Positions 27,241 to 43,373 of a DNA stretch of 64,000 nt are shown here, one piece after another (positions within the stretch are counted from its first letter, which is position 1; every line of letters begins with the position of its first letter). A program made the translations under genes and the position numbers. The DNA is from an uncultured Flavobacteriales bacterium. GTDB lineage: Bacteria; Bacteroidota; Bacteroidia; Flavobacteriales_E; Vicingaceae. Location: assembly GCA_905479915.1 (NCBI GenBank), contig CAJQOH010000062.1:1-64000 (forward strand), written 5' to 3'. Below the pieces are notes generated by a model, which saw only the letters and a list, made by a program, of their open reading frames with translations, had not been told where the DNA came from and did not search any database.

Positions 27241-28059
27241 TTAAAATAAGTTATCGAAGTCTACTCTATCAAATACCTCTAATTTACCGCCTACTGTAGC
27301 ATTTGTAACTTTTCGTCCATCCAACTCAAACATTAGCTTAGCCAAACGGTAACTTTTTAAAACATTAAACAACTTAGGATCATGCCATTTCTTTCCTTTC
27401 CCGAAATAATCTGGATGGAAATGATTTACATCATCTTCTGTACTTTCAATAACGTTTCCATCAACCTTAGCGCTATCTGGCACATTATAACTAAAATCCA
27501 TGCCTATTAAATAAACCTCACTAAATCCTAAATAATAAGCTAATTGTAAATTTACTATAGTTACAGATTGTCCACAAAATGCCTCTTCCGATAAATCTTG
27601 TGAAAATCGTGGAACTTCAAAATACGAACTAACATCGTTATAAAATGAATAATCTAAGTTCAAAAAATAACGATTATTTGCTTTATTAAATTTAGATTTA
27701 AACTTACTAGGAAAAAACATGTAATCACATTGATAAGCATTAATTTCTTCTATATTATCATTAATTACATGCGGGTCTTCTACAACATAAAAAGTTGGTT
27801 TATATCCCATTTCACGTGTTTTATAATAAATTGAATTTACTGCAAAACTATACTCACCATCTAATTTTGACATATCAATATCATTTAATGAAGGCCCATT
27901 TCCAACAATGAAACAACGCTCACCTTTAAATTTGTTTTGAAGTTGAGCTATTTCTTTTTTACTCCTCCTTGATCTACCAGGTTGATCAATAAAGCTAGAT
28001 GGTACAAATTGCTTTATTTTTTGTTTTATTGATGACGATTTTTCCAATTTAAACTTCAA
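27241..28059 (-). CDS. GT42/Maf-like Rossmann protein, candidate CMP-sugar-acid transferase
   Basis: A 272-residue protein of the DUF115/Maf/GT42-like group. GNGPSLNDID at residues 53-62 matches the start of sialyltransferase CstII (GNGPSLKEID). Further parallels are CGQSVTIVNLQLAYYLGFSEVYLIGMDF (162-189) against the SGVYM...ALGYKEIYLSGIDF region, and a His-rich loop (H213, H215) where CstII has its catalytic His. These enzymes transfer sialic-type acids from CMP donors. With a cytidylyltransferase in the same operon, this is a likely user of the CMP product. The start is TTG, overlapping the VOC gene by 11 bp. Pfam naming as MptE/6-hydroxymethylpterin-like is possible but misleading here. 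Confidence 0.68.
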   Translation of the reverse strand: MKFKLEKSSSIKQKIKQFVPSSFIDQPGRSRRSKKEIAQLQNKFKGERCFIVGNGPSLNDIDMSKLDGEYSFAVNSIYYKTREMGYKPTFYVVEDPHVINDNIEEINAYQCDYMFFPSKFKSKFNKANNRYFLNLDYSFYNDVSSYFEVPRFSQDLSEEAFCGQSVTIVNLQLAYYLGFSEVYLIGMDFSYNVPDSAKVDGNVIESTEDDVNHFHPDYFGKGKKWHDPKLFNVLKSYRLAKLMFELDGRKVTNATVGGKLEVFDRVDFDNLF

Positions 28060-28450
28060 TTATTTCAATCATATGCATTTCTTCTGTATATAAAAATGCA
28101 CATTGTTTATTATTAAAAGCTTCCGATTTAAAGGTTGTTATAATGTGTAACCCCTTATTCGTAAGATCTTCTAGGGTTTTAGAAAAACTTTCCGTTAAAT
28201 AACCAATATGGTAGTATGATTGCTTTTTCTTTAAAAGCTTGGCTATTGCTGAAGTTTCATTTAATGGTTCAATTAATTCCATGTAAGTATTCTCTCCTAT
28301 CTTTACAAAACATACATTAACATCTTGTGATGAAACATAGGTCGTTTTTGAGCATTCCTTAAACCCTAACGTGTTTTTGTATATTGATATTGATTGTTCA
28401 ATGTTTTCGACAACACAACCAATATGATGTATTTTTAAATTTAGTTCCAA
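28049..28450 (-). CDS. VOC-superfamily (glyoxalase-like) protein
   Basis: A small metalloprotein of the vicinal oxygen chelate fold: LKIHHIGCVVENIEQSISIYKNTLGF at the N-terminus, TYMELIEPL in the middle and a KLHIITT-like GLHIITTFKSEAFNNKQCAFLYTEEMHMIEIIEV at the end. Metal ligand candidates are the first His (HHIG), Glu of MELIEP, His of YYHIGYL and Glu of MIEIIE, the order seen in methylmalonyl-CoA epimerase. Two TTG starts are possible: 28471, overlapping the ACP gene by 19 bp, or 28450, two bases after it. The second fits the packing of this operon. Its place beside an ACP hints at action on an ACP- or CoA-bound acid. Confidence 0.78.
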   Translation of the reverse strand: MELNLKIHHIGCVVENIEQSISIYKNTLGFKECSKTTYVSSQDVNVCFVKIGENTYMELIEPLNETSAIAKLLKKKQSYYHIGYLTESFSKTLEDLTNKGLHIITTFKSEAFNNKQCAFLYTEEMHMIEIIEV

Positions 28451-28452
28451 GT

Positions 28453-28689
28453 CTATTTTGCCAATATACAAGCTATTATTTCACCAATGTTTTTGAACTT
28501 TGCAATCTCAGATGAAGTAAATTTTATTCCAAATTGTTTTTCAACAGAGAACAACAATTGAACATGCGTAATAGAGTCCCAATCCTCTACATCGTTTGCC
28601 GTTGTATTTTCTGCAAGTACAATGTTTTCATCATCAAAAACATCTTTTGCAATTTCGTTTATCTGTGCTAAAACTTCTGTCATTTCCAT
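28453..28689 (-). CDS. Acyl carrier protein
   Basis: A 78-residue acidic carrier protein. The phosphopantetheine attachment serine is S39 in VEDWDSITHVQLLFSVEKQFGIKF, with the family Asp-Ser pair kept (DSI in place of DSL). It is not the fatty-acid ACP locus, as no fab genes are near. It sits between a methyltransferase and a VOC protein and close to the FkbH-like gene, so it probably carries the acyl unit made by FkbH. Spacing to the upstream gene is two bases. Confidence 0.93.
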   Translation of the reverse strand: MEMTEVLAQINEIAKDVFDDENIVLAENTTANDVEDWDSITHVQLLFSVEKQFGIKFTSSEIAKFKNIGEIIACILAK

Positions 28690-28691
28690 TT

Positions 28692-29591
28692 TTATTGTTT
28701 TTTTAAGAATGCACCATACATAAGTGCTATTTTATACTGCTCAGCTATTTCTGGGCTTACATCTTCAACAAATTCTGCATATTCTTTCGTTATGGTTAAA
28801 CCTGCCGCAGTAATAACATCTCTGATATCCTCTGCATTTTTAAACAAATAAATATGGTCAATTGCTGGTGCATTGGCTGGTGCGGTTATAAATAAAGTAC
28901 CACTATCCTTTAAAAGTCCAGATACACACTTTAATAAAGATATCGGATCTTCAACATGTTCTAACACCTCCCCCATCGTTATAAAATCATATTTCTCTGA
29001 AGGCTCGTACTCATAAATGTCAGAAAGCATATAGTTGATATCTTGTTTTTCTATAAAACTCTTTGATATTTCTAAAGACGTTGGACTGATATCTACTACA
29101 TCAAAAGATGTAGTATCACTTAATAATTTTGTTGCCTCAGAAATATACATTCCATGTCCTGCACCAATTTCCAAATAGTTACTTACTTCGGTTTTATGCT
29201 TAGTAATGTTACCTACAAAGAACTTATAGATATCGTTATGATGCACCCATAGATATTGAGACATCAATAATCCATGCATGTAATATTCCATTACCTCAGG
29301 GTTGTTATACACTCTTCTATTGGCATCTTCGAACGATTTTGTGGTATACTCTCCTGTTTCTAAGAAAGCAATATATTCTTGATTTACATCGGCTAACATT
29401 CTTAAATAACATGCAATTCCATAATCTAAATCTTTATCGGTTTTTTTTGCAAAAGAAATATAGGTACTAAAAAATTCGTTAGCCTTATCTTTATATTCTT
29501 GAGATTGTTTGCCTATATTCTTTCTTAATTTCTTTCCGTGCACCGGATTTTCAGTAGCTATTTTAGCTATTATATCGTCTAAATAATTCAT
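28692..29591 (-). CDS. Class I SAM-dependent methyltransferase
   Basis: A 299-residue protein. Its N-terminal 140 residues are helical (NANRRVYNNPEVMEYYMHGLLMSQYLW type). The methyltransferase core follows: YLEIGAGHGMYISEATKLL near residues 145-163, VVDISPTSLEISKSF, FITMGEVLEHVEDPISLLK and LFITAPANAPAIDHI. The helical front half may bind the acceptor. It overlaps the FkbH-like gene by 4 bp and lies two bases before the ACP gene. In FkbH systems an O-methyltransferase often acts on the ACP-bound acid, and this is a candidate for that role here. Confidence 0.8.
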   Translation of the reverse strand: MNYLDDIIAKIATENPVHGKKLRKNIGKQSQEYKDKANEFFSTYISFAKKTDKDLDYGIACYLRMLADVNQEYIAFLETGEYTTKSFEDANRRVYNNPEVMEYYMHGLLMSQYLWVHHNDIYKFFVGNITKHKTEVSNYLEIGAGHGMYISEATKLLSDTTSFDVVDISPTSLEISKSFIEKQDINYMLSDIYEYEPSEKYDFITMGEVLEHVEDPISLLKCVSGLLKDSGTLFITAPANAPAIDHIYLFKNAEDIRDVITAAGLTITKEYAEFVEDVSPEIAEQYKIALMYGAFLKKQ

Positions 29592-31318
29592 TCCCCTATA
29601 GTTTTAATGAAACATTTTAGCTCACCACTATCTTCCATTTTTAAAATCCAAATATCGTCTTTTTTTTCAAAGTTTAAATCTAAGTAAAGATCTTTAACCA
29701 AATGGTTTTTAGCTGTTGGAATAACCTCGGCTTCAACTTGTTTTATTCCGTCTATTTTTTTTGCCAAATTAATTATATAATTAGCAATAAAACCTTCTAC
29801 TCCTCTCTTCAGTACTCTACAACTCATAACCCAAGTATCAATAAACAAATTATCTTCGCTCTTTTTTAAGATTATCACCGAAATAAGACCTGTATCTCCA
29901 TAAACATCTTTTAAAGATACACTAAAACAAATATGGTTTTCAGATTTTGCTAGTTCTGATAATTCTTGTTCGGAATATCTAATAGTTCTAACATTAAATT
30001 GGTTTGACCGTTGAATGAGTTGAGCGATTCTTGGTAAATTAAAATCATTAAATGGTTCTATTTTGGCCTCCATATTAAGGCTTTTTAAAAAATCATCTTG
30101 ATTAGAAAATTTCATTTCTTCATTTTTCCTCTTCGATTCTTCTTGATATTGCAAAGTTCTTTTCAAATCATTTTGCGAGTAACTGGCTGTTTCAAATAAG
30201 TTTAGTCCTTTTAAATAGTTTATGTATTCTGCAGGATCTTCCGGTAATTCTGGTACTTCTAAATTTGGAATATTTGATTTAACCAATTCTCTTTCAAACT
30301 TATTGTCATCTAAAAAAACCATAGAATCAAAACCAATGTTTAAAATACTCTGAATATATTTAATATTGTCTGCTTTATTATTCCAATTAGCAACAAAAAC
30401 GGAAATATCTTCAAGTTTCAATATCATGTCAGGATGACGTTCAAACGGTGTCTTAGCAACATCTTCAAAATTTTTAGAACAAACTGCTAAAATAATCCCT
30501 CGATTTTTTAACTCTTTGGCCCATTTCTGAAAATTCGTAAACGCTTTCCCTATCCCTAAACTACCAATTTCAATACCTTTTAAACCGTCATCTCCTATAA
30601 CCCCTCCCCACATTGTATTATCTAAATCCAGTATTAAACATTTTTTAAATTTACCCAACAACGTGGTTGAAATATCACAAACGTTTTTTGCTATTATTGG
30701 AGTAATATCTAAACTAAATAATATATCAGTACTGATATATGTATTGTATGAAAACGACTGTTTATCACCAAGTCTTTGATGAATTTTTTTTACATCAACT
30801 ATATGTAATGAAGGGTTTTGGATAGCTAAATCCATCAATAAAAAATTTATTTTTCGAATTTGATACAGAAATGATGATGATACTTTATTTCCAAAGTTTC
30901 CAAAAACACCATCATCCTCCTCTATTATATTGAATATCATTACCGCCTTGGGAGCTATAGCATCATTGATATTTTGATGTAAGTTAGCTATTCTGTTCAC
31001 ATAGTCAGTCGCAAAATTATGTCGTTCACTTAATGGCGACTTATAAAAAAGTTTTTGAATTTTTAAGTAACTTTCTGCAAGAAGTACAAATTCGGATTGT
31101 TTTGAATAAAGCTCTGACTCCGAATTAAAAACCTGTAGATCTACCTGGTCATAATCAGCTTCATAAATCTCAAAATTGTATCCATACTCAAAAGCATAAC
31201 CTTTTATCGCCTTAACTAAAAATTGAGTTGAAAAATCTCCTAAAACCGAGAAATTAATTCTAGGCAATAGGTCATTCTCCTTTTTGAGATTTTTTATAAG
31301 TTGATTAATGGTTTTCAC
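29588..31318 (-). CDS. FkbH-like HAD-IIIC protein (glyceryl-ACP-forming type)
   Basis: A 576-residue three-domain protein. Residues 1-200 form an SGNH-like domain beginning with GDFSTQ (27-32). The HAD-IIIC core has the nucleophile D231 and D233 in DLDNTMWGGVIGDDG, C280 in AVCSKN and MVFLDDNKFERE. A GNAT-like C-terminus has QRSNQFNVRTIRY and YGDTGLISV. FkbH-type enzymes take 1,3-bisphosphoglycerate and load D-glycerate on an ACP through the conserved Cys. An ACP gene lies 0.9 kb downstream. Related proteins may load other acids, so glycerate is a family-based inference. The start is GTG in a GTGA overlap. Confidence 0.88.
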   Translation of the reverse strand: MKTINQLIKNLKKENDLLPRINFSVLGDFSTQFLVKAIKGYAFEYGYNFEIYEADYDQVDLQVFNSESELYSKQSEFVLLAESYLKIQKLFYKSPLSERHNFATDYVNRIANLHQNINDAIAPKAVMIFNIIEEDDGVFGNFGNKVSSSFLYQIRKINFLLMDLAIQNPSLHIVDVKKIHQRLGDKQSFSYNTYISTDILFSLDITPIIAKNVCDISTTLLGKFKKCLILDLDNTMWGGVIGDDGLKGIEIGSLGIGKAFTNFQKWAKELKNRGIILAVCSKNFEDVAKTPFERHPDMILKLEDISVFVANWNNKADNIKYIQSILNIGFDSMVFLDDNKFERELVKSNIPNLEVPELPEDPAEYINYLKGLNLFETASYSQNDLKRTLQYQEESKRKNEEMKFSNQDDFLKSLNMEAKIEPFNDFNLPRIAQLIQRSNQFNVRTIRYSEQELSELAKSENHICFSVSLKDVYGDTGLISVIILKKSEDNLFIDTWVMSCRVLKRGVEGFIANYIINLAKKIDGIKQVEAEVIPTAKNHLVKDLYLDLNFEKKDDIWILKMEDSGELKCFIKTIGE

Positions 31319-32286
31319 TGTTTTCTATTTAACGACTTCGCTATTTCTATTGAAAATAATTTTGCACCTTTCCTTGATAGATGATTACCGTCACAAAATT
31401 CATACTGAGCTCCATCTTCAGCGAAGTTAATATATTTTACAGAATTAGTATCACTTATTTTTTCAATCATTTGATTAAACGATGGATACTTACTAATTTC
31501 ATATTGAAATACTTTAGGATGAACTGGTAACCTGACTAAATAGACAGTTCCATGGCCTTTTAAAAACGTAATCATTTCATTCAAATAACTAAATCTTAGT
31601 GCAGATAATTCATAATTCTTTTCTTTGGTTTCATTGATAAAATCATCTGCTTGTTTTTGTATTTTTTTATTAATTTGAGAAAAATCATTGTTGGTTGTTT
31701 TTATTTCAAGTGATCCATCATTGTGTACATACGACCATTTTCCATCTAAGCCCAGCCCCATTTCATTTACAGTCGATATTATTGGGGGTTCAACCTTTTT
31801 CAATAAAATATTACCCCAACCATAACCGTATCCGTTTAACAAATACTCGTAATTGGGGCTAGAAGAAAAATTCGAAAGTTTAGCTAGTCCAAAATTTTGT
31901 TCTCTGAGAACAGTTGCATCTCCATTATCATTACCATAAGAAGAAAGGCCCCACGGGCTCACGGATACCAGGAAAATTCCATTAGTAGATTTAGATAACA
32001 CCTTATTTTTAACGGCATTTAAATAAACTGGGCCTATACCAGAGTGAGAGTTGGTAAAAGCAAAGTTATAAAGCTCATTCTCAGGTTTTTCTAATATCGA
32101 ATCTATAACCTGAGGAATTATTGCTTGACTCATTCTTGAGCCCCCTAAGGCTAAAGATTTTTTTTTACCACTCGACACCTTTTCATAAACAGAGTCAGTA
32201 TATCCATCGGCAAAAAAAGACAATAACATGTGTAAAAGAACCACTACTACTATTGCAAGAATCGATTTATGTAAAAATAATTTCAT
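31315..32286 (-). CDS. SGNH-like membrane-anchored partner of the MBOAT protein
   Basis: A 323-residue protein with an N-terminal membrane anchor (about residues 8-27) and a periplasmic domain. LGGSRMSQAI near residues 47-56 and DGNHLSRKGA near the C-terminus supply the Ser and Asp-x-x-His elements of an SGNH hydrolase/transferase. This is the pattern of DltD- and AlgX/AlgJ-like partners of MBOAT proteins. It starts two bases after the MBOAT gene and overlaps FkbH by 4 bp. It probably takes the acyl group delivered by the MBOAT protein and places it on the exported glycan or lipid. Confidence 0.75.
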   Translation of the reverse strand: MKLFLHKSILAIVVVVLLHMLLSFFADGYTDSVYEKVSSGKKKSLALGGSRMSQAIIPQVIDSILEKPENELYNFAFTNSHSGIGPVYLNAVKNKVLSKSTNGIFLVSVSPWGLSSYGNDNGDATVLREQNFGLAKLSNFSSSPNYEYLLNGYGYGWGNILLKKVEPPIISTVNEMGLGLDGKWSYVHNDGSLEIKTTNNDFSQINKKIQKQADDFINETKEKNYELSALRFSYLNEMITFLKGHGTVYLVRLPVHPKVFQYEISKYPSFNQMIEKISDTNSVKYINFAEDGAQYEFCDGNHLSRKGAKLFSIEIAKSLNRKQ

Positions 32287-32288
32287 TT

Positions 32289-33731
32289 CTAAAATTGAAA
32301 ATAAATAAAGTCATTGTTATTAAATCTACCAAATACTATTATTAATAGAATAAATAATGAATAAACTCCCCATCTTTTAAAAGTTGGCAAATTAGCCACA
32401 TCTAACACATGATCCTTATTGCGATTAAACCATTCTAAGAGTATAAATACAATAATCAACAGCAAAGTATAAATCATACGGTATTTCGGAGCAATTATCA
32501 TTGGCAAAGTGAATAAACTCCTATCTATCAGGTGCTGAGTATACCCAATTGCATCTGTTAAAGTGTTAGATCTAAATAAAATCAAGGTAAACAGATAAAA
32601 ACCCATTGTAAGCCCTAAACTTAAGACAAAATAGAGTCTTTTATTTACTTTTTTCTTCCACCTTTTACGCTGTTTAGTAGTTAATATTTCATAACTAATA
32701 ATTATCCCGTGAAATAATCCAAAAACGATATACACCCAATTTGCCCCGTGCCAAAAACCAATTATCGTAAATGATAATATTGTTGAAACTATAATCCCCA
32801 TCATTCCCCAAGCTCTTAATTGAATAACAATAGGTGTATATAAATAATCTCTCAACCATGTACTTAGTGAAATGTGCCAACGTCTCCAAAATTCAGTAAT
32901 ACTGGTTGAAAAATAAGGGAATTTAAAATTCTCCATTAACTTAATACCAAACAACTTTGCAGTTCCAATCGCGATATCAGAATAACCAGAAAAATCCCCA
33001 TATACCTGAAAAGCAAATAATATTACCCCTAAAAGGAGTGTACTACCCGATTGATCTGGATAATTATCAAAAATATTATTCACGAAAAAAGCACAATTAT
33101 CAGCTATTACCACCTTTTTAAAAAAACCCCATAATATCAGTCGTGCTCCTTCGGCTCCATCATGATAAGTAAATGTTCGTTTTTTTAAAAATTGTGGTAT
33201 TAAATTACCAGCTCTTTCAATTGGTCCTGCCACCAATTGGGGGAAAAAACTTACAAAAGCCAAAAAAGTAATTAAGTCTTTAGTTGGTTTTATTTCTTTT
33301 CGATAAATATCAATGGTGTAACTTAAAGTTTGAAAAGTGTAAAAACTAATTCCTATTGGTAAGATCACTTGCAAAGTGGACCCCTCTAATTCGATACCCA
33401 TTGACGTAAAAAGAGAGACAAAATTCTCAACAAAAAAATTATAATATTTAAACAAAAATAAAGTACCAAGGTTACTCACCAAACTCAATATAAGAAGTAT
33501 ATTTCTTGACTTTCTATGATCTACTTCAGAAATTCTCTTTCCAATGAAGTAATCAATTATAGAGCTAAAAAAAATGAGTCCAAGAAATCTCCAATCCCAC
33601 CAACCATAAAAAAAATAACTAGCTATGATTAAAAAAAAGTTCTGTCCTTTAATATTCTTATTTACAATAAACCAATAAATAAAAAAAACGATAGGTAAAA
33701 AGAAGATGAATATCAACGAATTAAACAGCAT
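32289..33731 (-). CDS. MBOAT-family O-acyltransferase (AlgI/DltB-like)
   Basis: A 480-residue polytopic membrane protein with about eleven hydrophobic segments. The family core is complete: VAGPIERAGNLIPQF, YGDFSGYSDIAIGTAKLFGI, FWRRWHISLSTWLRDYLYTPI with the first conserved His, and GFWHGANWVYIVFGLFHGI with the catalytic His. Family members move an acyl group across the membrane, from a carrier protein in DltB and probably from an acyl donor in AlgI. The adjacent SGNH protein, FkbH-like enzyme and ACP make an ACP-bound acyl donor likely here. Confidence 0.93.
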   Translation of the reverse strand: MLFNSLIFIFFLPIVFFIYWFIVNKNIKGQNFFLIIASYFFYGWWDWRFLGLIFFSSIIDYFIGKRISEVDHRKSRNILLILSLVSNLGTLFLFKYYNFFVENFVSLFTSMGIELEGSTLQVILPIGISFYTFQTLSYTIDIYRKEIKPTKDLITFLAFVSFFPQLVAGPIERAGNLIPQFLKKRTFTYHDGAEGARLILWGFFKKVVIADNCAFFVNNIFDNYPDQSGSTLLLGVILFAFQVYGDFSGYSDIAIGTAKLFGIKLMENFKFPYFSTSITEFWRRWHISLSTWLRDYLYTPIVIQLRAWGMMGIIVSTILSFTIIGFWHGANWVYIVFGLFHGIIISYEILTTKQRKRWKKKVNKRLYFVLSLGLTMGFYLFTLILFRSNTLTDAIGYTQHLIDRSLFTLPMIIAPKYRMIYTLLLIIVFILLEWFNRNKDHVLDVANLPTFKRWGVYSLFILLIIVFGRFNNNDFIYFQF

Positions 33732-33748
33732 AAATGACTTCTTTTACC

Positions 33749-34672
33749 CTATTTTTGGTTCTGTTGATTTAATAAATGTGTGATAGCACTCATTCCCATT
33801 GCTAAAACAGCTTCTCTTGCATTTCCTCCGATATGTGGTGTACAAATCAGGTTAGGTAATTTTAACAAGTTAAGGTTTGTTGGTGGTTCTTCCTCATAAA
33901 CATCTATTGCAGCAGCTTTTATTTTATATGAAGTTAATGCTTCTAACAAATCATCTTCCTGTATGATGCCCCCACGAGCAGTATTCAATACAATTGCATT
34001 TTGTTTCATTAAATTGAGTGAATCTCGATTTATCAAATGCATTGTTTCTTCTGTAAGTGGTGTATGAACAGTAATAACGTCTGCTTGCTCAAATATTTCC
34101 TTTTTTGTTGCTTCTATTAGACCATGCTCTTTATAATAGTCTGTTTGATCAATAATATCATTTACCAATACCTTACAATTGAAAGGCTTTAACATTCTAA
34201 CAACTTCTTTTCCAATAAATCCAACACCAATAATTCCAACCGTTTTTCCGGTAAGCTGTTCTCCTCCATCCTTTTTCCAAGTTCCTTCACTTAGCAAAGA
34301 AGAACTCTGATAAAGGTTACGCAATAATGAAATAGCATTTCCTATTACCATTTCTGCAACAGAAACTTTATTAACCCCTCCTGTCCATCCTATTTTTACA
34401 TTTCTTGATTTGCAAGCATCTAAATCTATATTATTTAGTCCTACACCGTATTTAGCTATAATTTTTAATTCTGGTAATTGGTCCAATACTTCTGAATCGA
34501 TTTCATCTAACCCAACTATTGCTGCATCAAAACCTTTTAGATAATTTATTAATTCTGCCTTAGAGAATTTTAGTCCTTCTGAATTTAATTTTGCATCAGA
34601 AAATTCAACTCCCATCTTACGAATTAAATCAGGATGTTTTGAAAAAGATGGTGATGTTACTGCAACTCTCAT
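33749..34672 (-). CDS. D-2-hydroxyacid dehydrogenase
   Basis: A 307-residue NAD(P)-dependent enzyme of the D-isomer 2-hydroxyacid dehydrogenase family, close to phosphoglycerate dehydrogenases but without a regulatory ACT domain. The Rossmann motif is GKTVGIIGVGFIGKEVV (near 143-159). The catalytic Arg is in NTARGGII, the Glu in DVYEEEPP and the His in TPHIGGN. It shares one base with the upstream HAD gene. A housekeeping SerA role is less likely given its place inside a glycan operon. It may reduce a 2-keto acid or oxidise a 2-hydroxy acid made or used by this locus. Confidence 0.87.
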   Translation of the reverse strand: MRVAVTSPSFSKHPDLIRKMGVEFSDAKLNSEGLKFSKAELINYLKGFDAAIVGLDEIDSEVLDQLPELKIIAKYGVGLNNIDLDACKSRNVKIGWTGGVNKVSVAEMVIGNAISLLRNLYQSSSLLSEGTWKKDGGEQLTGKTVGIIGVGFIGKEVVRMLKPFNCKVLVNDIIDQTDYYKEHGLIEATKKEIFEQADVITVHTPLTEETMHLINRDSLNLMKQNAIVLNTARGGIIQEDDLLEALTSYKIKAAAIDVYEEEPPTNLNLLKLPNLICTPHIGGNAREAVLAMGMSAITHLLNQQNQK

Positions 34673-35322
34673 TATTCAATATTTTTTATTACTTCAGCCA
34701 AACTTAGTAAATCATTAATTTTTAAGACGTTTTTTTCACTAAAAAGTAGCCTGTTCTCTTCATGCTCTCTTAAAACAAAATAAAACCCATGGTGTTTTGC
34801 AGCTTCATAATCAGTTGTAGCATCTCCAATAAAAACGATTTCAGTATTATCTAAACTAAACCTTTGCATTAATTCTGTTGACCAATTAATTTTATTGGTC
34901 GGTGATCCTGCAATTAACTTAAACAGATCGGTAATCTTTAATTCCTCACAAATTGTTTCAATTTCATTTTGAGGCGTTCCTGTTATAATGTATTGATCAT
35001 AAGTAGAACCTAATGTACTAATTGCTTCCTTAGCTCCTGTAACGTACGGACTATCTATCACTCTTTTTAATACCAACTCAGAAAACCGATTTGTCCACTT
35101 TTCCAATTCAGCATCTGTAATATCAATTCCTAAATGGGTTTTATGCCAATATTTAATTTTTTCAAACCGAGAAATACCTCCATTTGCGATATGATACTCT
35201 TCTACTTTATTTGCGATATCTTCTCCAAACTCTTCATATAAATCGTAGAATGCTCTAGATTTAATATCTGTAGATTCTTTGATTACACCATCAAAATCAT
35301 AAAATATCGCTTTTATACTCAT
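34672..35322 (-). CDS. HAD-superfamily phosphatase (subfamily IA)
   Basis: A 216-residue hydrolase. The nucleophile motif is FYDFDGVIKEST (D9 and D11), motif II is YIITGTP, the lysine lies in SPTNKINW, and motif IV is VFIGDATTDYEAAKHHG. A helical cap follows motif I, as in beta-phosphoglucomutase and phosphoglycolate phosphatase relatives. The expected job is to remove phosphate from a sugar or sugar-acid phosphate intermediate. It overlaps the cyclase-family gene by 4 bp and the dehydrogenase gene by one base. Confidence 0.87.
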   Translation of the reverse strand: MSIKAIFYDFDGVIKESTDIKSRAFYDLYEEFGEDIANKVEEYHIANGGISRFEKIKYWHKTHLGIDITDAELEKWTNRFSELVLKRVIDSPYVTGAKEAISTLGSTYDQYIITGTPQNEIETICEELKITDLFKLIAGSPTNKINWSTELMQRFSLDNTEIVFIGDATTDYEAAKHHGFYFVLREHEENRLLFSEKNVLKINDLLSLAEVIKNIE

Positions 35323-35987
35323 CTTACTTTTGCTATTATAGTTACTGGAGCTCCATCCGCTCCATCCAATAATAATGGTGCCACAATAACTTCTTCAAAA
35401 ACTGTTGTTTCAAACACATTTGTTAAGTCTACTTCTTCTACTATAAGAACATCTTGTTCTATTAAAAACTGTTTATGTGCTTCTCTCCCTATCTCTCTAT
35501 TTTGATAAGAGTTTAATGAAATCAAATCAAAAGCTATTGCTTTTAAATTAGGGAAATTGCTCTTCAAAAAAGCTGCAACTTCAGGATGAAATCCAAAACC
35601 ATATTCCCAATAGTCATTGGTATACCTTTTATTACAAAAACCTGTTTTAACAAAAAGCAGTTCTACATTTCGGTCTAAATTATTTGTATTAAGATCTTTA
35701 TTTTGAATAAGGTAATTGTCTACTTTGCCTGCATTGATTTCAACACAAGCCACATTCTTATATATAAAATCACTTGCCTTGTATGCTGAAGATTTCTTCC
35801 CTTCTGAAGAAAAATGATAGGGAAAATCAATATGAGTTCCATAGTGAGTTGGCATTTGAAATACTGAGTTGTTACTAGTATCTCCACAACACATATCCCT
35901 AACTTGAGTCAGTTTAAACCGATCTCCATTACCATAACCAAATGCCTTATCATTTAAGGGATAAGATAAAAATAATGTTTTACTCAT
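35319..35987 (-). CDS. Cyclase-family (kynurenine formamidase-like) hydrolase
   Basis: A 222-residue protein of the metal-dependent cyclase family (PF04199 type). The metal motif HYGTHIDFPYHF matches H-x-G-T-H-x-D-x-P-x-H, and AFDLISLNSYQNREIGREAHKQFL carries the later conserved His. Family members hydrolyse amides such as N-formylkynurenine or act on cyclic lactams and lactones. In this context it may open a lactone or remove an N-acyl group from a sugar intermediate, but I cannot tell. It overlaps the SDR gene by 8 bp. Confidence 0.83.
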   Translation of the reverse strand: MSKTLFLSYPLNDKAFGYGNGDRFKLTQVRDMCCGDTSNNSVFQMPTHYGTHIDFPYHFSSEGKKSSAYKASDFIYKNVACVEINAGKVDNYLIQNKDLNTNNLDRNVELLFVKTGFCNKRYTNDYWEYGFGFHPEVAAFLKSNFPNLKAIAFDLISLNSYQNREIGREAHKQFLIEQDVLIVEEVDLTNVFETTVFEEVIVAPLLLDGADGAPVTIIAKVR

Positions 35988-36864
35988 TATTCTTAATTAT
36001 ATCGTGTGCTTGCTGAATGCATGCTAATAAACCTTGTCCCATATCAACATAAGGGTTAGGCGTTAATTTTTGACTTGTCTCTGGTGTAAAACTATATGGT
36101 GTATACTTATAATGGTTCTTATAACCATCTGCCGATAAATTGATTTTTAATGAATCTCCTAAGATTTCATTTATCATATTAAATAAATCACCCCTTTTTA
36201 TTCTTTCTACTCCTGTAAGAACTAAATGTTTGTTTTTATATTCATCGCCATTTATTATATCTGCAGAAAGCTTTGCAGCATCTAATGCATGGATGTATTC
36301 TCTAATTTCATTTCCATCACCTGCATGGTTAATTTCCCGAGATCTTATAGCATTCTTTACCAAATTAAAAATGTAATTATTTTCAAAATCACGATCACTA
36401 TATACAGAACCATATCGCAGTATGGTATAATCTAAATCAAATTTCTCCTTATACTCTTCTACTATTTTTTCAGACGATAATTTTGACAGCCCATAAAAAG
36501 AACCTTTATTACTCATCGCATATGCACTACTAGCAAAAACAAAATGCTTGACATTGTGTTTAACGCACTGATCAATAATATTTAAGTTTCCTATAACATT
36601 TAATTCAAAAGTAGAAACAGGATTGTTAACTGCATTATCTAAACTAGAGTAACCAGCTAAGTTATATACTATGTCAAATTTATTATCTGTAAATACTTTT
36701 TCAATTTGTTCTTTATCTAGTATATCAATTTTTATAAACTTTTCTGAAGGGATATACGCTGATTCTTCTATATCAAGAGCTATAACATTATGCCCTCTTT
36801 CTAAAAGTTCTGTGACTACATAACTTCCTAAAAAACCTGTTCCTCCAAATACTGCTATACTCAT
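35980..36864 (-). CDS. NAD-dependent epimerase/dehydratase (extended SDR)
   Basis: A 294-residue extended short-chain dehydrogenase. The NAD-binding motif is VFGGTGFLGSYVV at residues 4-16, and the active site is YGLSK with the upstream Ser of ASSAYAM. YTILRYGSVYSDR and REYIHALDAA are the usual substrate-domain motifs of sugar-nucleotide epimerases. It probably modifies a nucleotide-bound or phosphorylated sugar. It begins 10 bp after the aldolase gene and overlaps the cyclase gene by 8 bp. Confidence 0.87.
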   Translation of the reverse strand: MSIAVFGGTGFLGSYVVTELLERGHNVIALDIEESAYIPSEKFIKIDILDKEQIEKVFTDNKFDIVYNLAGYSSLDNAVNNPVSTFELNVIGNLNIIDQCVKHNVKHFVFASSAYAMSNKGSFYGLSKLSSEKIVEEYKEKFDLDYTILRYGSVYSDRDFENNYIFNLVKNAIRSREINHAGDGNEIREYIHALDAAKLSADIINGDEYKNKHLVLTGVERIKRGDLFNMINEILGDSLKINLSADGYKNHYKYTPYSFTPETSQKLTPNPYVDMGQGLLACIQQAHDIIKNNE

Positions 36865-36874
36865 ATAATTCTAT

Positions 36875-37636
36875 TTAAACGCTTTTTTTAAGAATATCCA
36901 TTTGTTCTCTTGCTTTATCTCCTAAAAAGAAAAAATCTAAAGAAAATGCTAGGAATGTATAACCTAAATCCATTTTCGCACGAGTAAAAGATTGATCTGA
37001 TTGAATTACATGTGCTCCCTTAGGTTTATTTAATTCATCACAAATTTTATCATACTTAGCTATTACTTCTTTTACCTCCGGAAGGTCATACTTTCCTGGT
37101 TGGTTCATTGATGCAGACAGATCATAAGGTCCAATTAACGTAGAATCTATTTCTTCTACAGAAAGTATTTCTTCTAAATTGTTTATTGCATCAATATGTT
37201 CAATTTGAGCAATAACAACGATATCTTTTTTCAATCTTTCCTGATACTGATCAAAGCCTATTCCATATGCTTGAGCTCTTGATAAACCAACGCCTCTTTT
37301 ACCCATCGGAGGGTAATATACATAACTCACCAACTGCTCTGCTTCCTCTTTAGATTTTATCATAGGAACAATAATTCCATCAGCTCCTGCATCCAACACT
37401 CGTTTAATAATGACTTCATCATTCGCATAAACTCTAACAAAGGCTTTTATTCCTTTGCCCTGAATGTAACCTATTAAATTCTGAACACTTTCAATATTCA
37501 CTGCTGAGTGTTCGATATCAATAGTTAACCAATCAAATCCAGCAGTTGCCATAATCTCTATAACAGCTTGATTTGGTATAGTCACCCAACTACCAAGAGT
37601 AACTTCTTTATTTCTTATTTTTTGTTTTAAGTTCAT
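36875..37636 (-). CDS. HpcH/HpaI-family class II pyruvate aldolase
   Basis: A 253-residue metal-dependent aldolase. H43 in DIEHSAV, R68 in FVRVY, E146 in QIEH and D172 in GPYDLS correspond to the catalytic His, Arg and the two metal ligands of HpcH. PPMGKRGVGLSRAQAYG is the conserved substrate loop. Family members add pyruvate to aldehydes, or cleave the products, giving 4-hydroxy-2-keto acids. Catabolic partners are absent. Instead it shares one base with a cytidylyltransferase gene and sits next to an SDR and a HAD phosphatase. Synthesis of a 2-keto-3-deoxy sugar acid is therefore the reading I favour. Confidence 0.9.
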   Translation of the reverse strand: MNLKQKIRNKEVTLGSWVTIPNQAVIEIMATAGFDWLTIDIEHSAVNIESVQNLIGYIQGKGIKAFVRVYANDEVIIKRVLDAGADGIIVPMIKSKEEAEQLVSYVYYPPMGKRGVGLSRAQAYGIGFDQYQERLKKDIVVIAQIEHIDAINNLEEILSVEEIDSTLIGPYDLSASMNQPGKYDLPEVKEVIAKYDKICDELNKPKGAHVIQSDQSFTRAKMDLGYTFLAFSLDFFFLGDKAREQMDILKKSV

Positions 37637-38301
37637 TACTTAACCAAATTTAATTTATGTATCGTTTCTGCTAAAACAAAATCACGAGGATCATCAATAT
37701 CTATAGCTTCAATCTTATCAATTTCAAATAACATTGGATTTAAACCAATACGTTTATTTCCAGCTTTATGAAATGATTCTTTGGTAAAAATAAAGATATT
37801 AGAATTCTCTTCAAAAAGAGGTGGTAAATCTTGTGTTCTTAATAACTCTTCTGGGTTATGATTTACTGGCTTTCCATCTCTCCAATACAATCGCGTTTGA
37901 AGCTTTGTAACTGAAAAAAGAGAATCACTTGTGGTTGAATTCTTAAATTCTTCTATTGCTTTATCTATTGTCTCGGTTTTTAACAAAGGGTTTGTGCTAT
38001 GTGTCTGCAAATAAATGGTTCCATCCGAGTTTTCCAAATCATTAGCAATAACATCATTCATCGAAACTAAATCACCACATATTTCTTCAGGGCGTTCATG
38101 AATTTTAACTTTAGAGTATACGGCTGTAATTTGAGAAATTTCATCGCTATCTGTATTTATTATAATCTCATCGATAAGGTCACTCTCTTGCAAAGAAGTT
38201 AAAACATAATGAAATAAGGGTTTCCCATTGAAATTTTTAATGTTTTTCCCAGGAACTCTTTCAGAGTTTCCTTTCATAGGTATAAGTGCTACTACTTTCA
38301 A
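37636..38301 (-). CDS. CMP-sugar-acid cytidylyltransferase (NeuA/KdsB superfamily)
   Basis: A 221-residue nucleotidyltransferase. The N-terminal CTP-binding loop is ALIPMKGNSERVPGKNI, followed by IIINTDSDEI, YLQTHSTNPLL and the metal site IDIDDPRDFVLAE near the C-terminus, all in the order of acylneuraminate and KDO cytidylyltransferases. PMKGNSERVP differs from the usual PARGGSKG/R form, so it belongs to a separate clade and need not act on sialic acid or KDO. The start is TTG in a TTGA overlap with the flippase gene. Its product is expected to be a CMP-linked acid for the transferase at 27241. Confidence 0.87.
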   Translation of the reverse strand: MKVVALIPMKGNSERVPGKNIKNFNGKPLFHYVLTSLQESDLIDEIIINTDSDEISQITAVYSKVKIHERPEEICGDLVSMNDVIANDLENSDGTIYLQTHSTNPLLKTETIDKAIEEFKNSTTSDSLFSVTKLQTRLYWRDGKPVNHNPEELLRTQDLPPLFEENSNIFIFTKESFHKAGNKRIGLNPMLFEIDKIEAIDIDDPRDFVLAETIHKLNLVK

Positions 38302-39791
38302 TTTTTTCCTGTTATTTTTTTAAAATTCTTAATTATTAAGTGATTTAATTCTTCAGATGATTTCATCAGAATATTACCTCCAATAAACACTAAAGTAATT
38401 AACGCACTATTTATAATTATCTCTAAAAAGTTATTTTCTGCCCACCTTGTTTTAAACATAAAAATTAAAACCACTAACAAGGTGTTTATTCCTATAAAAA
38501 TATGTCTTTTAGTTAATAAATTCATTTTAATTAAAAATAACACAGAAAAATACTTTGCACAAGAATACACCAACAAAACTATTGACGTTGCGATAGCTGC
38601 TCCAGTGATCCCATATAAATCAATTAAAAAGTAATTAGAAACAATGGTTAAAATGATCAAAAACGGAACCAGAATTCCATTTAATTTGTAGTATTTAGTA
38701 GCATTAATCATCAAATCAGAAGTGCCAAAAATAGCATCTATTACCTTAGCTAACCCAATAAAAAAAACAACCCATTTACCTGCAGCGTATATTTCTCCAT
38801 TTGGAATTATTAAGAATAATTCATCAATATTATACCAAATAAGCAAAAACAAAAACACGCCTATTATAGATAAATTTATTCCTGATTGCTCGTATATTTT
38901 TTTTAACTCTTCATCGTTACCTTCTGAAACTAGTCTAGACATTATTGGATAAGATAATTGAAAAACTATTCGTTTAGGCATTTCAATAACAGCTGCTATA
39001 AAAAAAGCAATCGCATAAACCCCCAACAACTTAAAATCATCGGTTATACTACTAATCATAATAGTGTCAATTTTCCCAACCATTACAGCACCACTTATAC
39101 CAATAAATAAAAACAATGTATATGATATTATCGCTTTCTTCTCAGAGTGTTTAGTTATCATTTTAGGTGACCTAAACTTAAAATTCACACTTTTCTTAAA
39201 AAAAACAAACAACATTAACAGCTCAATAAAATGAGCAATGGTATACCAAAATATTAATTCATAAAAGTCAAAAACATTAAACGAATAAAATATTAACAAA
39301 ATCATCAAACTTAACCTTCTGTATATAGTTTTTAAGAATGATGGGAAAACAATTAATGATTTTGTTACCAAAATAGCTTCCAAAATAGACAAATAAACGT
39401 AACAGAATACCAATGGAAAAATAAAAACCAAATAGGACTTATAATTCATTACATTATCCCCCATAAGAGCAACAACATTATCCTTAAATAGAAGGGTTGA
39501 AACACTTAATATAAAAAATACAATTAGTGGAACTATAAGCAATAGACTAATAAAACCATCATGCTCTTTACCTTCTGTAAAGTGATGAATAAATCTTCCT
39601 GGCAATCCACTCATTCCGAACATCACAAATGGCAATACCAATATAGTAACGTCCATTACATAACTTAATATTCCTACTTGCAATTCTGTAATTATTGCAG
39701 TTTGCAACCATAAGACATTGATTACTCCCAGTATAACACCAACATAATTAATAACAGTTGTTGATATAGCTTTCTTTATAACTATCCCCAT
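38298..39791 (-). CDS. Oligosaccharide flippase (Wzx-like)
   Basis: A 497-residue polytopic protein with about fourteen hydrophobic segments and the MOP-superfamily N-terminus KKAISTTVINYVGVILGVINVLWLQT. YAIAFFIAAVIEMPKRIVFQLSYPIMSRLVSEG is typical of polysaccharide exporters. It should move undecaprenyl-linked repeat units to the periplasm. It is the only flippase in the window and is paired in the same operon with glycosyltransferases and the CMP-sugar genes, overlapping the upstream GT2 gene by 10 bp. Confidence 0.88.
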   Translation of the reverse strand: MGIVIKKAISTTVINYVGVILGVINVLWLQTAIITELQVGILSYVMDVTILVLPFVMFGMSGLPGRFIHHFTEGKEHDGFISLLLIVPLIVFFILSVSTLLFKDNVVALMGDNVMNYKSYLVFIFPLVFCYVYLSILEAILVTKSLIVFPSFLKTIYRRLSLMILLIFYSFNVFDFYELIFWYTIAHFIELLMLFVFFKKSVNFKFRSPKMITKHSEKKAIISYTLFLFIGISGAVMVGKIDTIMISSITDDFKLLGVYAIAFFIAAVIEMPKRIVFQLSYPIMSRLVSEGNDEELKKIYEQSGINLSIIGVFLFLLIWYNIDELFLIIPNGEIYAAGKWVVFFIGLAKVIDAIFGTSDLMINATKYYKLNGILVPFLIILTIVSNYFLIDLYGITGAAIATSIVLLVYSCAKYFSVLFLIKMNLLTKRHIFIGINTLLVVLIFMFKTRWAENNFLEIIINSALITLVFIGGNILMKSSEELNHLIIKNFKKITGKN

Positions 39792-40672
39792 AACCCCTTA
39801 CTAATCCACCATCTAAACTTAATTAACATAACTCCTTTAGGCAACTGACCTTTAACTAAATATATTACAAATAATCCAAATGTTCCTCCCCATTTATACA
39901 TTTCTATAATCCACCTTTTAAAATACTCTCCTGATTTTTTAGTTCTTAATCGTTCTGACACCCCAATTCCTTCGGCTTGTATTTTAATAAATTCAACCGT
40001 AAGCCTTTTTTTTGGTATCACATGATTTACAAGCATTTTAGGAAAGTAATAAATGGGAATATTGGCTTGTTTAATTCTAAAAAAAAAGTCTTTTTCTTCT
40101 CCTCCCAACATAGAATCACCACTCCTCCCTAATTCTTCATTAAAATCACCAATTTTATCTACCACACTTTTTGACACCCCCATATTAGCACCTATTGGAT
40201 ATTTTTTACCCCCAAACAATACTACCTCCTTGCCTAAATCAATTATTGACATTAACGTTGAAAGGTATGTAGACATCCAGTTTGGTAATTCACATTCTAA
40301 ATAGGGAAGAATTTTACCTCCAAAACCAATCATATCAGGAGTATCTTCTAAATACTTTTCTAATTCCTCAACATAATTTGCATCTAAAAAAGCATCATCA
40401 TCTACAAAAACATAATAATTTCCTGAAGCCTCCTTAAGACCTCTATTTCGAGCATAAGACAAGCCCTGTTTTTCTTCTAAATAGTAGTTAAAATTAATCT
40501 CTTTATTTTTCTCTTGATAAGCTTTACATATTTGCTCTGTATTATCTCGAGAGTTATTATTAACTAAGATCACTTCAAACTTATTTGGAGAACAGTTTTG
40601 ATCTAAAATGCTTTGTAACATTTTAGGTAAATAGATTTCTCTATTATATGTACATACTATAATTGAAATCAT
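39782..40672 (-). CDS. Family 2 glycosyltransferase
   Basis: A 296-residue GT-A enzyme with ISIIVCTYNREIYLPKMLQSIL at the N-terminus, ILVNNNSRDNT, LSYARNRGLKEASGNYYVFVDDDAFLD with the metal motif near residues 92-95, and GGEEKDFFFRIKQA as the catalytic-base region. A hydrophobic C-terminal segment (GTFGLFVIYLVKG) may touch the membrane. It overlaps the flippase gene by 10 bp and follows the YfhO gene by 16 bp, so it belongs to the operon. Confidence 0.92.
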   Translation of the reverse strand: MISIIVCTYNREIYLPKMLQSILDQNCSPNKFEVILVNNNSRDNTEQICKAYQEKNKEINFNYYLEEKQGLSYARNRGLKEASGNYYVFVDDDAFLDANYVEELEKYLEDTPDMIGFGGKILPYLECELPNWMSTYLSTLMSIIDLGKEVVLFGGKKYPIGANMGVSKSVVDKIGDFNEELGRSGDSMLGGEEKDFFFRIKQANIPIYYFPKMLVNHVIPKKRLTVEFIKIQAEGIGVSERLRTKKSGEYFKRWIIEMYKWGGTFGLFVIYLVKGQLPKGVMLIKFRWWISKGLWG

Positions 40673-40688
40673 TCCTTTAACTAACTAA

Positions 40689-43373
40689 TTACTCTTCTTC
40701 TTTCGGATTCCCTAGCTTAAATTCACGATATCCTCCATAAATCAATGCCGCCATTATTAACAAGAAGACACTTACTCCAATAGCATTACCTGCTCTATAC
40801 ATACTTGGTTCAAACTTAAATTCAACTAAGTGATCTCCTGCAGGTATTGGTAGTCCTCTTAAAATATAGTTTGCTCTAAAATGTTTAACTTTTTCTCCAT
40901 CAACATAAGCATTCCAACCATCTTCATAATACACTTCTGAAAAAATAGCCAATTGATTCTTAGCTGATTTTGTTTGGTAAGCTAATTGATTAGGAGCATA
41001 AGAAGTTAATGTTATTGTTGAATTCATATCTTTAGGATAAGAATCAGCAACTACAACATCCTTAAACATATTGTTTACAATGGCGGTCTTCTTAGGGTCA
41101 ATATCATTGATTGACAATATTTCTTCGTTTGGATGATTAACAAATTTAACATCTTCTACAAACCATGCATTCCCATAAGCATATGGATTTTGAAGAGCTA
41201 AATTCCCTTGATACAAATAATATTTAGTATTCAACATATTCAACACTTTTACTTGTTCTGGATTCTGCAATAGAGGTATTTCCTTTTGTAAATAAAAATC
41301 AATCACATCTTGATATCTAGCCATTTTAGCCGCACTATATCCTCCAGGTGATTTATGAAAATATGAAACTGCTGCACTATTAAACGGGTTATCCAAATTT
41401 AAAACCCTATAATTTGAATTTAAATTTAAAGTCGAAAACCGGGCACTCTCCTCATCTCTAAAATTCAATCTACCTTTTTCTTTTTTCATTTCTTTAATAG
41501 CCTCTAGTGAAAGCTGTTCTATTTTTGGATTTAAAGAAGATTCTATCTGATATATTTGCTTATCACCAGCTGATGCCACAAATGTATTTCCATAACCTGC
41601 ACCTTTTTCCCAAGCCAAATATTCTCTTTTATTATTAGGATTCTTTTCGTTATTCAAATAACGTTTATCCACGTCCCAAATATCAACTAAACAAGCTAAA
41701 GTTAAAAGAGGGAGCACATATTTATACTTTACCTTACCTGAAATCCATAAAAACAATAAGGCTAAAGCAGCTAAAAGAAACATTAATGTTCTATATGAAT
41801 CGGCTTTAAAAACATCAATTCTAAATGAACGCAAAGCATCTTCAGCATCAGCAGGATTTATACCAGAATTAGTTTGAGAAAAGGTCTGGTATAATTGAGC
41901 GAAAATACTATCCTCAATATCACTAGTGAAATCAAAAAGATTAGGCATTAAAGCAAAAAGTAAAACAACTCCTGCCAAAGAACCACCAACAATTAAAATC
42001 TTTTTAAGGTTAGCTTTTGCCCATTCAAGATTTTCATAAATATGATTTAAAAATAGAATAGACATTAAAGGGAAAGTCAAGTTTACAATCACTAATATCG
42101 AAGAAACTGTTCTAAACTTATTATAGAGAGGAACATAATCGATAAAAAAGTTTGTTAACCACATTTCCTCAACTGACCCTCCTAGATTCTTTCCCCAACT
42201 CAACATTATTGCTAGGATACTTACCAATAGTAGAGCCCATTTCAATTTGGTTTTCACAAAAACCAAATACAAGAAAGCAAGTAATACGATAATTGCCCCA
42301 ATATAATTTGCCCCTGAAGTAAATGGTTGATCCCCCCAATAACCTCCAAATATTTTCCCTCGGTTACTTTGATATTGTTGAACTGCGTAATTAAAAAGAC
42401 TAGGATTATTTTCCTTTAAATAATCGAAAAATGCATTTGTTTGATTTTTACTGTCTCCTTTTGCATTTGGCACTAATAGATTATATGTTTCTTGTTTTCC
42501 ATAACACCAATTCACAATATAATCACGGTCCAACCCCCCGGACTGATTCGCTACTTTTTCAGATCCATCAGGGTTAATAGTAATTTCGGGAACACCCCTC
42601 ATAGAGTGTTTCGCATAAGACTGCATATTGTAGTACTCATTAAAATTAGCCATCAACGCAATAAAAGAACATACAATAAGGATTAAAGATCTTGTAGCAA
42701 ATCGAGTAACAGTTTTTTCTTTTATTGCTTCATACAGCATAAAGCCTCCTATAGCTATTAATATGAAAGCAAAATAATAGGTCATTTGAATGTGGTTCAT
42801 TCTAATCTCAAGCCCCATAAAAAAAGTAAATAAAGCAGCTGGAAGTAGTATGTTTTTATTGCTTCTATACACCCAAAGGAACATGCCCAAAACCGCAGGA
42901 ATATAAGCCAATGCTTGAGATTTTGTATTATGACCTGCTTCAATAATTAACACGTGATAGGAAACAAAACCATATGCGATCGCACCCAGTACAGCTATCA
43001 AGTTTTTTACTCTTAGAGTTTTTCCGAGAATAAAAAAGCTCAACATTGCAATAAACAAAACAGATATAGGTAACTGTGTAAAGCTAAGCCCCAGTGAAAA
43101 TATTCTATCAATAAAGGTGAACCCATTCATGTTCTTAACACTAACAAAATAACCAGGCATACCACTAAACATAGAATTAGTCCATATGGCTTCTTCCCCA
43201 TTAACTGATCTATAATCAACCAATTCTTTAGCTGCAGCTTTCCAACTAGATACATCACCTTGTTTCAGTGAAAATCCGTTTAATGCTGGTGAAAAATAAG
43301 CAGCCGCAAGAACTATAAATATTAATATTACAACGATGTAATTTATGTTCTTATAATAAAACTCTTTTATCAT
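40689..43373 (-). CDS. YfhO-family polytopic membrane protein
   Basis: An 894-residue protein. Its first 560 residues hold roughly thirteen membrane segments with FSPALNGFSLKQGDVSSWKAAAKEL in the first periplasmic loop. The C-terminal third is periplasmic and ends with a last membrane helix, preceded by the family signature YYEDGWNAYVDGEKVKHFRANYILRGLPIPAGDHLVEFKFEPSMY. YfhO proteins are GT-C-like and in Firmicutes are needed to glycosylate lipoteichoic acid. Here it may transfer a sugar from a polyprenyl carrier outside the cytoplasm. A 192-bp gap without visible features separates it from the preceding GT2 gene; a promoter there is likely but not evident. Confidence 0.9.
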   Translation of the reverse strand: MIKEFYYKNINYIVVILIFIVLAAAYFSPALNGFSLKQGDVSSWKAAAKELVDYRSVNGEEAIWTNSMFSGMPGYFVSVKNMNGFTFIDRIFSLGLSFTQLPISVLFIAMLSFFILGKTLRVKNLIAVLGAIAYGFVSYHVLIIEAGHNTKSQALAYIPAVLGMFLWVYRSNKNILLPAALFTFFMGLEIRMNHIQMTYYFAFILIAIGGFMLYEAIKEKTVTRFATRSLILIVCSFIALMANFNEYYNMQSYAKHSMRGVPEITINPDGSEKVANQSGGLDRDYIVNWCYGKQETYNLLVPNAKGDSKNQTNAFFDYLKENNPSLFNYAVQQYQSNRGKIFGGYWGDQPFTSGANYIGAIIVLLAFLYLVFVKTKLKWALLLVSILAIMLSWGKNLGGSVEEMWLTNFFIDYVPLYNKFRTVSSILVIVNLTFPLMSILFLNHIYENLEWAKANLKKILIVGGSLAGVVLLFALMPNLFDFTSDIEDSIFAQLYQTFSQTNSGINPADAEDALRSFRIDVFKADSYRTLMFLLAALALLFLWISGKVKYKYVLPLLTLACLVDIWDVDKRYLNNEKNPNNKREYLAWEKGAGYGNTFVASAGDKQIYQIESSLNPKIEQLSLEAIKEMKKEKGRLNFRDEESARFSTLNLNSNYRVLNLDNPFNSAAVSYFHKSPGGYSAAKMARYQDVIDFYLQKEIPLLQNPEQVKVLNMLNTKYYLYQGNLALQNPYAYGNAWFVEDVKFVNHPNEEILSINDIDPKKTAIVNNMFKDVVVADSYPKDMNSTITLTSYAPNQLAYQTKSAKNQLAIFSEVYYEDGWNAYVDGEKVKHFRANYILRGLPIPAGDHLVEFKFEPSMYRAGNAIGVSVFLLIMAALIYGGYREFKLGNPKEEE

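Follow-up and report, generated by a model that had tools for sequence, protein, structure and literature searches.

Can a cytidine monophosphate (CMP)-activated sugar acid be made without the synthase that usually forms its carbon skeleton? In the biosynthetic routes known for CMP-ulosonic acids, whether sialic, legionaminic or pseudaminic acid, Kdo or Kdn, this is a phosphoenolpyruvate (PEP)-dependent synthase of the NeuB/KdsA type. The question is raised by six consecutive genes in the window, a 64,000-nucleotide stretch of DNA (contig CAJQOH010000062.1, assembly GCA_905479915.1, Bacteroidota, 74 contigs) from an uncultured marine bacterium of the Flavobacteriales. An earlier interpretation of this stretch, here called the sequence-only reading, had proposed that these genes might build a CMP-activated sugar acid by way of an aldolase. 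We find it fairly probable that they produce a 2-ulosonic acid activated with CMP, and do so without a PEP-dependent synthase. The central proposal of an aldolase-based, PEP-synthase-independent route is well supported by genomics, namely by conserved linkage, carriers that lack NeuB, KdsB genes beside the aldolase in the absence of KdsA, a recurring anomerase and a Maf/CstII-like transferase. The order of steps that the sequence-only reading gave in detail was not supported. The cassette comprises, in transcription order:

37636-38301, minus strand: CMPT, a NeuA/PseF-type cytidylyltransferase (PF02348) with a TTG start
36875-37636, minus strand: ALD, a class II pyruvate aldolase of the HpcH/HpaI type (PF03328) with a GPYDL motif (Y171)
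35980-36864, minus strand: SDR, an extended short-chain dehydrogenase (PF01370) with S112, Y124 and K128 intact
35319-35987, minus strand: CYC, a cyclase-family metal hydrolase (PF04199)
34672-35322, minus strand: HAD, a phosphatase (PF13419) with D9, D11, K144, D167 and D171 conserved
33749-34672, minus strand: DHG, a D-2-hydroxyacid dehydrogenase resembling phosphoglycerate dehydrogenase (PF02826/PF00389) with R233, E262 and H280 conserved

The genes were all intact, and their coordinates and junctions agreed with the sequence-only reading, as did the Pfam assignments of all six. Successive junctions measured -1, +10, -8, -4 and -1 bp, followed by 17 bp to an MBOAT gene. None of the six proteins reached a specific NCBIfam equivalog cut-off. 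No NeuB or KdsA was found among the genes annotated in the window, as had been claimed.

ALD matched PF03328 with 120 bits (cut-off 25) and scored below the NCBIfam cut-offs of the named aldolases: HpaI (187.8 bits, cut-off 368.8), GarL (161.3, cut-off 406.75) and RhmA (NF007521; 145.7, cut-off 441). Using 55 sequences, including the aligned chains of RhmA (2vws), GarL (1dxe) and HpaI (4b5s), an aldolase tree placed the CMP-linked aldolases in one group (support 97/87), with a few deep members on long branches. The residues H43, R68, E146 and D172, which had been reported as intact, were present in ALD, invariant in its relatives and kept across the clade alignment; they are shared, like the PF03328 domain, with HpaI, GarL and RhmA. 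What separates the cassette aldolases from those enzymes, apart from their own clade below every curated cut-off, is their position, in glycan loci and not in catabolic operons, and a tyrosine in place of Ala/Ser. This Tyr171, beside the metal ligand Asp172, was found in 45/45 clade members. Nine of ten non-clade sequences carried Ala, Ser or Asn at the position, which the remaining sequence did not cover. Catalytic residues of the other cassette enzymes were also retained when loci were compared.

The distribution of the cassette was followed at three levels. Among 46 genomes of the order searched for ALD homologues above E 1e-30, six had one, the window's own genome included. Three genomes of the window's family kept the gene order of the cassette at 62-90% identity, within a longer syntenic series (about 60-90%) comprising a YfhO-like protein, a family 2 glycosyltransferase, a flippase, CMPT, ALD, SDR, CYC, HAD, DHG and a PF01973 protein. 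Two further genomes of the order (G005 and G006) contained the six genes reshuffled, at 36-58% identity. A scan of GTDB genomes with an ALD alignment and two short peptide patterns gave 49 loci, a census that is not exhaustive because of those patterns; ten extra loci came from a 392-genome survey of the phylum, and all were annotated against reference proteins. The cassette was recognisable around 45 non-redundant clade aldolases from about ten phyla. A plasmid search returned only distant homologues (identity <=41%).

A cytidylyltransferase, either CMPT or KdsB, lay within 9 kb of the aldolase in 43 of the 45 clade loci and in 0/8 non-clade homologues (Fisher p = 5e-8, a value that overstates independence since the loci are related by descent). 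The loci were gathered mainly by ALD similarity, so this linkage was not selected for. Both clade loci without a cytidylyltransferase (L049 and L051) lay on short contigs, at most about 4 kb long. Further partners were DHG (38 loci), SDR (29) and HAD (26). Chance adjacency of aldolase and cytidylyltransferase was rejected on this linkage. The co-occurrence that the sequence-only reading had suggested looking for across genomes was found: the genes co-occur widely, and in the same order in three relatives.

Three architectures were distinguished. Type 1, found in the window, in Flavobacteria and in Deferribacterota, had the order CMPT, optionally YhcH, ALD, SDR, lactonase, HAD and DHG. Type 2 had the order DHG, Gfo/Idh, GmhA-like SIS, short SDR, dehydroquinate-synthase-like TIGR04425, YhcH, CMPT, optionally CYC or YhcH, and ALD. 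It was carried by Bacteroidia, Sphingobacteria and one unclassified metagenome-assembled genome (MAG), with a partial version on a Planctomycetota contig. Type 3 contained ALD, KdsB, DHG, SDR, HAD and sometimes CYC, and was carried by Syntrophomonas, Omnitrophota, Nitrospirota, Ratteibacteria, Nealsonbacteria, one gammaproteobacterium and some Bacteroidota. In nine clusters, the Gfo/Idh, GmhA-like SIS, short SDR and dehydroquinate-synthase-like genes stood in place of SDR and HAD, and no HAD was present.

The block of Gfo/Idh, GmhA-like SIS, short SDR and TIGR04425 was joined to the CMPT-ALD core in L037, L038, L041-L043, L045, L084 and L085. TIGR04425 is a putative cyclising sugar-phosphate phospholyase, and these clusters may make a carbocyclic ulosonic acid or one that is unusual in some other way. 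Separately, two triads of CMPT, DHG and a short SDR were seen without an aldolase (L087:8661-11012 and L088:839-3235), each with a PF01973 transferase nearby; a related route to a CMP-acid is possible for these.

CMPT matched PF02348 with 113.7 bits. Its best NCBIfam match was PseF (TIGR03584), at 101.5 bits short of the cut-off of 205.7, and the nearest solved structures were CMP-N-acetylneuraminic acid (CMP-Neu5Ac) synthetases. NeuB was found within 9 kb in 1/45 clade loci. Whether the gene set excludes NeuB and KdsA homologues had been put forward as a check. Of 35 cassette genomes, 14 had no NeuB (PF03102) anywhere, and neither did G129, G390 or G214 (at least 17 carriers). Polaribacter glomeratus and Maribacter flavus are among the NeuB-free carriers. 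KdsA, which serves lipid A Kdo, occurred in most cassette genomes, and the window genome has both PseI and KdsA. NeuB-free carriers of known quality were 100% (G043), 99% (G129) and 98% (G390 and G214) complete; the incompleteness of MAGs makes any one absence less certain but leaves the overall pattern standing. NeuB-free genomes typically had two PF02348 proteins over the cut-off, one KdsB-like and the other the cassette CMPT. The window CMPT was 71% identical to its counterpart in G043 and 56-60% identical to those in G129 and G390. One genome (G064) had neither NeuB nor KdsA, and its sole PF02348 gene was the cassette CMPT. In Syntrophomonas (G070, L048) and Nealsonbacteria (G068, L046), KdsB adjoined ALD, and no KdsA scored above the cut-off. 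These NeuB-free and KdsA-free carriers indicate that, in many carriers, CMPT needs a substrate that those synthases do not supply. The adjacent aldolase would be its natural source.

Two conventional assignments of CMPT were considered and rejected. An enzyme of the Pse pathway is contradicted by the relatives that keep CMPT without NeuB, and a KdsB by the presence of a separate KdsB-like gene.

A YhcH gene (PF04074) lay between CMPT and ALD, or adjoined CMPT, in 18 of the 45 clade loci. In E. coli, YhcH acts as an anomerase on Neu5Ac and gives Neu5Ac aldolase the open form of its substrate (PMC8141875). By analogy, the combination of aldolase, anomerase and CMP-transferase would fit a cyclic ulosonic acid. 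The catabolism of Neu5Ac by NanA and YhcH likewise pairs an aldolase with an anomerase of the YhcH family, and its substrate is a cyclic ulosonic acid. NanA, however, is a class I, degradative enzyme, whereas the cassette is accompanied by a CMP-transferase, a flippase and a transferase, that is, by synthesis.

A candidate for the use of the product, missed by the sequence-only reading, lies further along the same strand:

27241-28059, minus strand: a Maf/CstII-like predicted CMP-sugar transferase (PF01973)

The protein matched PF01973 with 84.1 bits (cut-off 34.6). Its AlphaFold model (pLDDT, the predicted local distance difference test, 88.9) had its best fold matches to Maf (5mu5; Z 14.3, root-mean-square deviation (rmsd) 3.3, 183 residues aligned) and to CstII bound to an analogue of CMP (Z 12.4, rmsd 3.8, 186 residues), with an MptE-type HPPK close behind (Z 11.4). 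PF01973 is the central, CstII-like domain of Maf, and CbMaf takes both CMP-Neu5Ac and CMP-KDO (PMC11339370). A CMP-ulosonic acid donor is predicted by this analogy. The PF01973 domain and sialyltransferase fold are shared with Maf flagellin glycosyltransferases and CstII (GT42), but the cassette-linked proteins are compact (261-383 aa) and no flagellin context was seen. No other PF01973 gene was found in the window genome. The PF01973 gene directly followed DHG in L009 and L010. It was single-copy and near the cassette in G000, G023, G042, G043, G390 and G067, and where it was multi-copy, all copies were in the cluster in G065 (4/4) and G447 (3/3).

A folate or methanopterin role for this MptE-like protein was rejected on its glycan context and on Maf and CstII being the best folds, the MptE-type HPPK match (Z 11.4) notwithstanding. 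An MptE-like (PF01973) protein of Campylobacter coli has been interpreted as a folate enzyme (PMC12102941); in Campylobacter, a flagellin glycosyltransferase of the Maf type seems the likelier identity of the domain.

In the window, DHG and the PF01973 gene were separated (28049-33731) by MBOAT, DltD-like, FkbH-domain (glyceryl-ACP type) and methyltransferase genes and a small glyoxalase-like open reading frame. This insert was absent from the same spot in close relatives and might serve as a unit for O-acyl decoration (glyceryl or lactyl).

The remaining cassette enzymes would act around the aldol step. The cyclase-family hydrolase had been listed in the sequence-only reading without a role. 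CYC matched PF04199 with 52.7 bits, with H48, H52, D54, H58, H171 and E184 conserved; kynurenine formamidases were its nearest structures, and the arylformamidase NCBIfam cut-off was not reached. CYC (14 loci) and a 6-phosphogluconolactonase (12 loci; TIGR01198, over the cut-off in the one tested) were never found together and occupied the same slot in type 1, and some clusters had neither. Because 6-phosphogluconolactonase replaces it in relatives, CYC is probably a sugar lactonase that hydrolyses a lactone made by SDR, a reaction also possible uncatalysed. HAD scored 34.0 bits against the KdsC-type phosphatase model TIGR01670, under the cut-off of 106.95, and no close solved structure was found for it. 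DHG was closest to phosphoglycerate and glycerate dehydrogenases.

From the observed gene content, conservation, linkage and catalytic residues, the absence of NeuB in many carriers and the transferase fold, we infer a pathway of which every reaction, direction and position in the order, and the identity of the sugar, is a prediction. SDR, the lactonase, HAD and DHG would prepare what ALD works on, namely an aldehyde as acceptor and perhaps a 2-oxo acid as donor. ALD, a class II enzyme, would couple this aldehyde with pyruvate or with an analogue of it, for example hydroxypyruvate. Cyclisation of the open-chain product would follow, assisted in many relatives by the YhcH-type anomerase, and the cyclised acid would be activated with CTP by CMPT, or by KdsB in other lineages. 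The Maf/CstII-like transferase would then move the CMP-activated sugar onto a surface glycan or glycoprotein. The sequence-only reading had placed dephosphorylation between the aldol reaction and CMP activation. That order is not supported by the nine related clusters without HAD; since type 2 clusters lack this enzyme, a dephosphorylation after the aldol step is not a general feature.

Several observations weigh against this pathway. The window genome encodes a PseI-type NeuB, in a separate PseB/PseC operon on contig C3, and a KdsA on contig C41. YhcH (PF04074) is absent from the window cassette, and none was found in the window genome. PF01973 was near only 19 of the 45 clade loci. DHG, nearly ubiquitous in the loci, has no obvious role in a simple pyruvate aldol route, and the triads in L087 and L088 manage without an aldolase. 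Characterised HpcH/HpaI enzymes act mainly in catabolic cleavage and, as far as we know, the clade includes no assayed enzyme.

Two further readings assign a reaction to DHG. In the main rival explanation, DHG oxidises C2: SDR and the lactonase would convert an aldose or aldose phosphate to an aldonate, HAD would dephosphorylate it, and CMPT would activate the 2-keto-aldonate left by DHG, with the aldolase trimming or supplying a side compound. SDR, lactonase, HAD and DHG do fit such an aldose-to-2-ketoaldonate sequence, DHG is present in 38/45 loci, CMPT, DHG and SDR occur without the aldolase in L087 and L088, and an interchangeable, sometimes missing lactonase is expected of a step that also runs spontaneously. 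The locus aldolases nevertheless have a clade and an active-site residue of their own, and nine clusters keep ALD, DHG and CMPT or KdsB without HAD or the extended SDR; we judge the oxidative route quite unlikely. The other possibility belongs within the aldolase pathway. DHG, with HAD, would make hydroxypyruvate as the donor from glycerate or 3-phosphoglycerate, giving a 3-hydroxy rather than a 3-deoxy ulosonic acid. The affinity of DHG to phosphoglycerate and glycerate dehydrogenases agrees with this, and HpcH aldolases accept hydroxypyruvate, aided by an aromatic active-site residue (PMC7610986), a precedent to be set beside the clade-private Tyr171. The published residue, however, may not occupy the same position as Tyr171, KdsB in type 3 clusters suggests a 3-deoxy acid, and type 2 clusters lack HAD, so that this variant is held only tentatively, as rather unlikely.

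An acid made elsewhere in the genome, by PseI or KdsA, could also be the substrate of CMPT, with the other genes acting as tailoring enzymes. Both synthases are present in the window genome and PseF is the best family match of CMPT. However, NeuB is absent from G043, G129 and G390, relatives whose CMPTs have the identities given above, NeuB-free genomes have a separate KdsB-like gene, and the three PF02348 genes of the window genome are a KdsB-like one, one within the PseB-PseC-PseI operon and CMPT, so that the Pse operon has its own. We consider this explanation very improbable. Equally little credit is given to a CMP-conjugate of a small non-sugar acid, made by the aldolase for a non-glycan polymer: characterised HpcH/HpaI enzymes do use small aldehyde acids, but the YhcH anomerase, the replacement by KdsB and the Maf/CstII-like transferases all indicate a cyclic ulosonic acid.

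The Pse operon of the window genome (L014:1743-8893, contig C3) contains PseB, PseC and PseI, together with genes for a cytidylyltransferase resembling SpsF and for a protein like glutamate-1-semialdehyde aminomutase, and the organism probably also makes a pseudaminic-type acid.

The surroundings of the cassette are rich in glycan genes. Upstream of CMPT, three genes were conserved in the three syntenic relatives:

38298-39791, minus strand: a Wzx-type flippase (PF01943)
39782-40672, minus strand: a family 2 glycosyltransferase
40689-43373, minus strand: a large YfhO-like membrane protein

The adjoining Wzx-type flippase suggests a lipid-linked glycan. The same region encodes a NodU-type carbamoyltransferase (16671-18392) and a PagL-type lipid A deacylase domain (24194-25315).

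Compared with the NeuB/NeuA, PseI/PseF, LegI/LegF and KdsA/KdsB pathways, the cassette shares the PF02348 last step, the phosphatase of some versions and the use of the product by PF01973 or CstII-like transferases. It differs in having no PEP-dependent synthase in the cluster, with many carriers lacking NeuB altogether, and in a carbon-carbon bond that would be formed by a class II aldolase. Our best reading is of a cassette that acts like a CMP-ulosonic acid pathway yet lacks that family's defining synthase. The sequence-only reading knew of no characterised pathway with this set, and none of this kind is known to us. The open-access literature, with subscription journals mostly uncovered, yielded nothing combining HpcH/HpaI enzymes with ulosonic or nonulosonic acid biosynthesis, and no biosynthetic cluster of YhcH with a cytidylyltransferase.

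There is about an even chance that these loci represent a separate CMP-ulosonic route, widespread across about ten phyla, that uses a dedicated class II aldolase in place of the PEP synthase. Its three architectures would then probably yield different, undescribed surface-glycan acids, and one Gram-positive and one Patescibacteria carrier even pair the aldolase with KdsB in the absence of KdsA. Surveys of 'sialic-acid-like' sugars search for NeuB. If the pathway is as proposed, such surveys would overlook an entire class of carriers, NeuB-free Flavobacteria from the sea among them, and these organisms would bear surface sugars of undescribed structure, made by a class II aldolase running in the synthetic direction. 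With type strains that can be grown in culture, some seven genes and an assay for the CMP-transferase, the cassette offers a ready test system.

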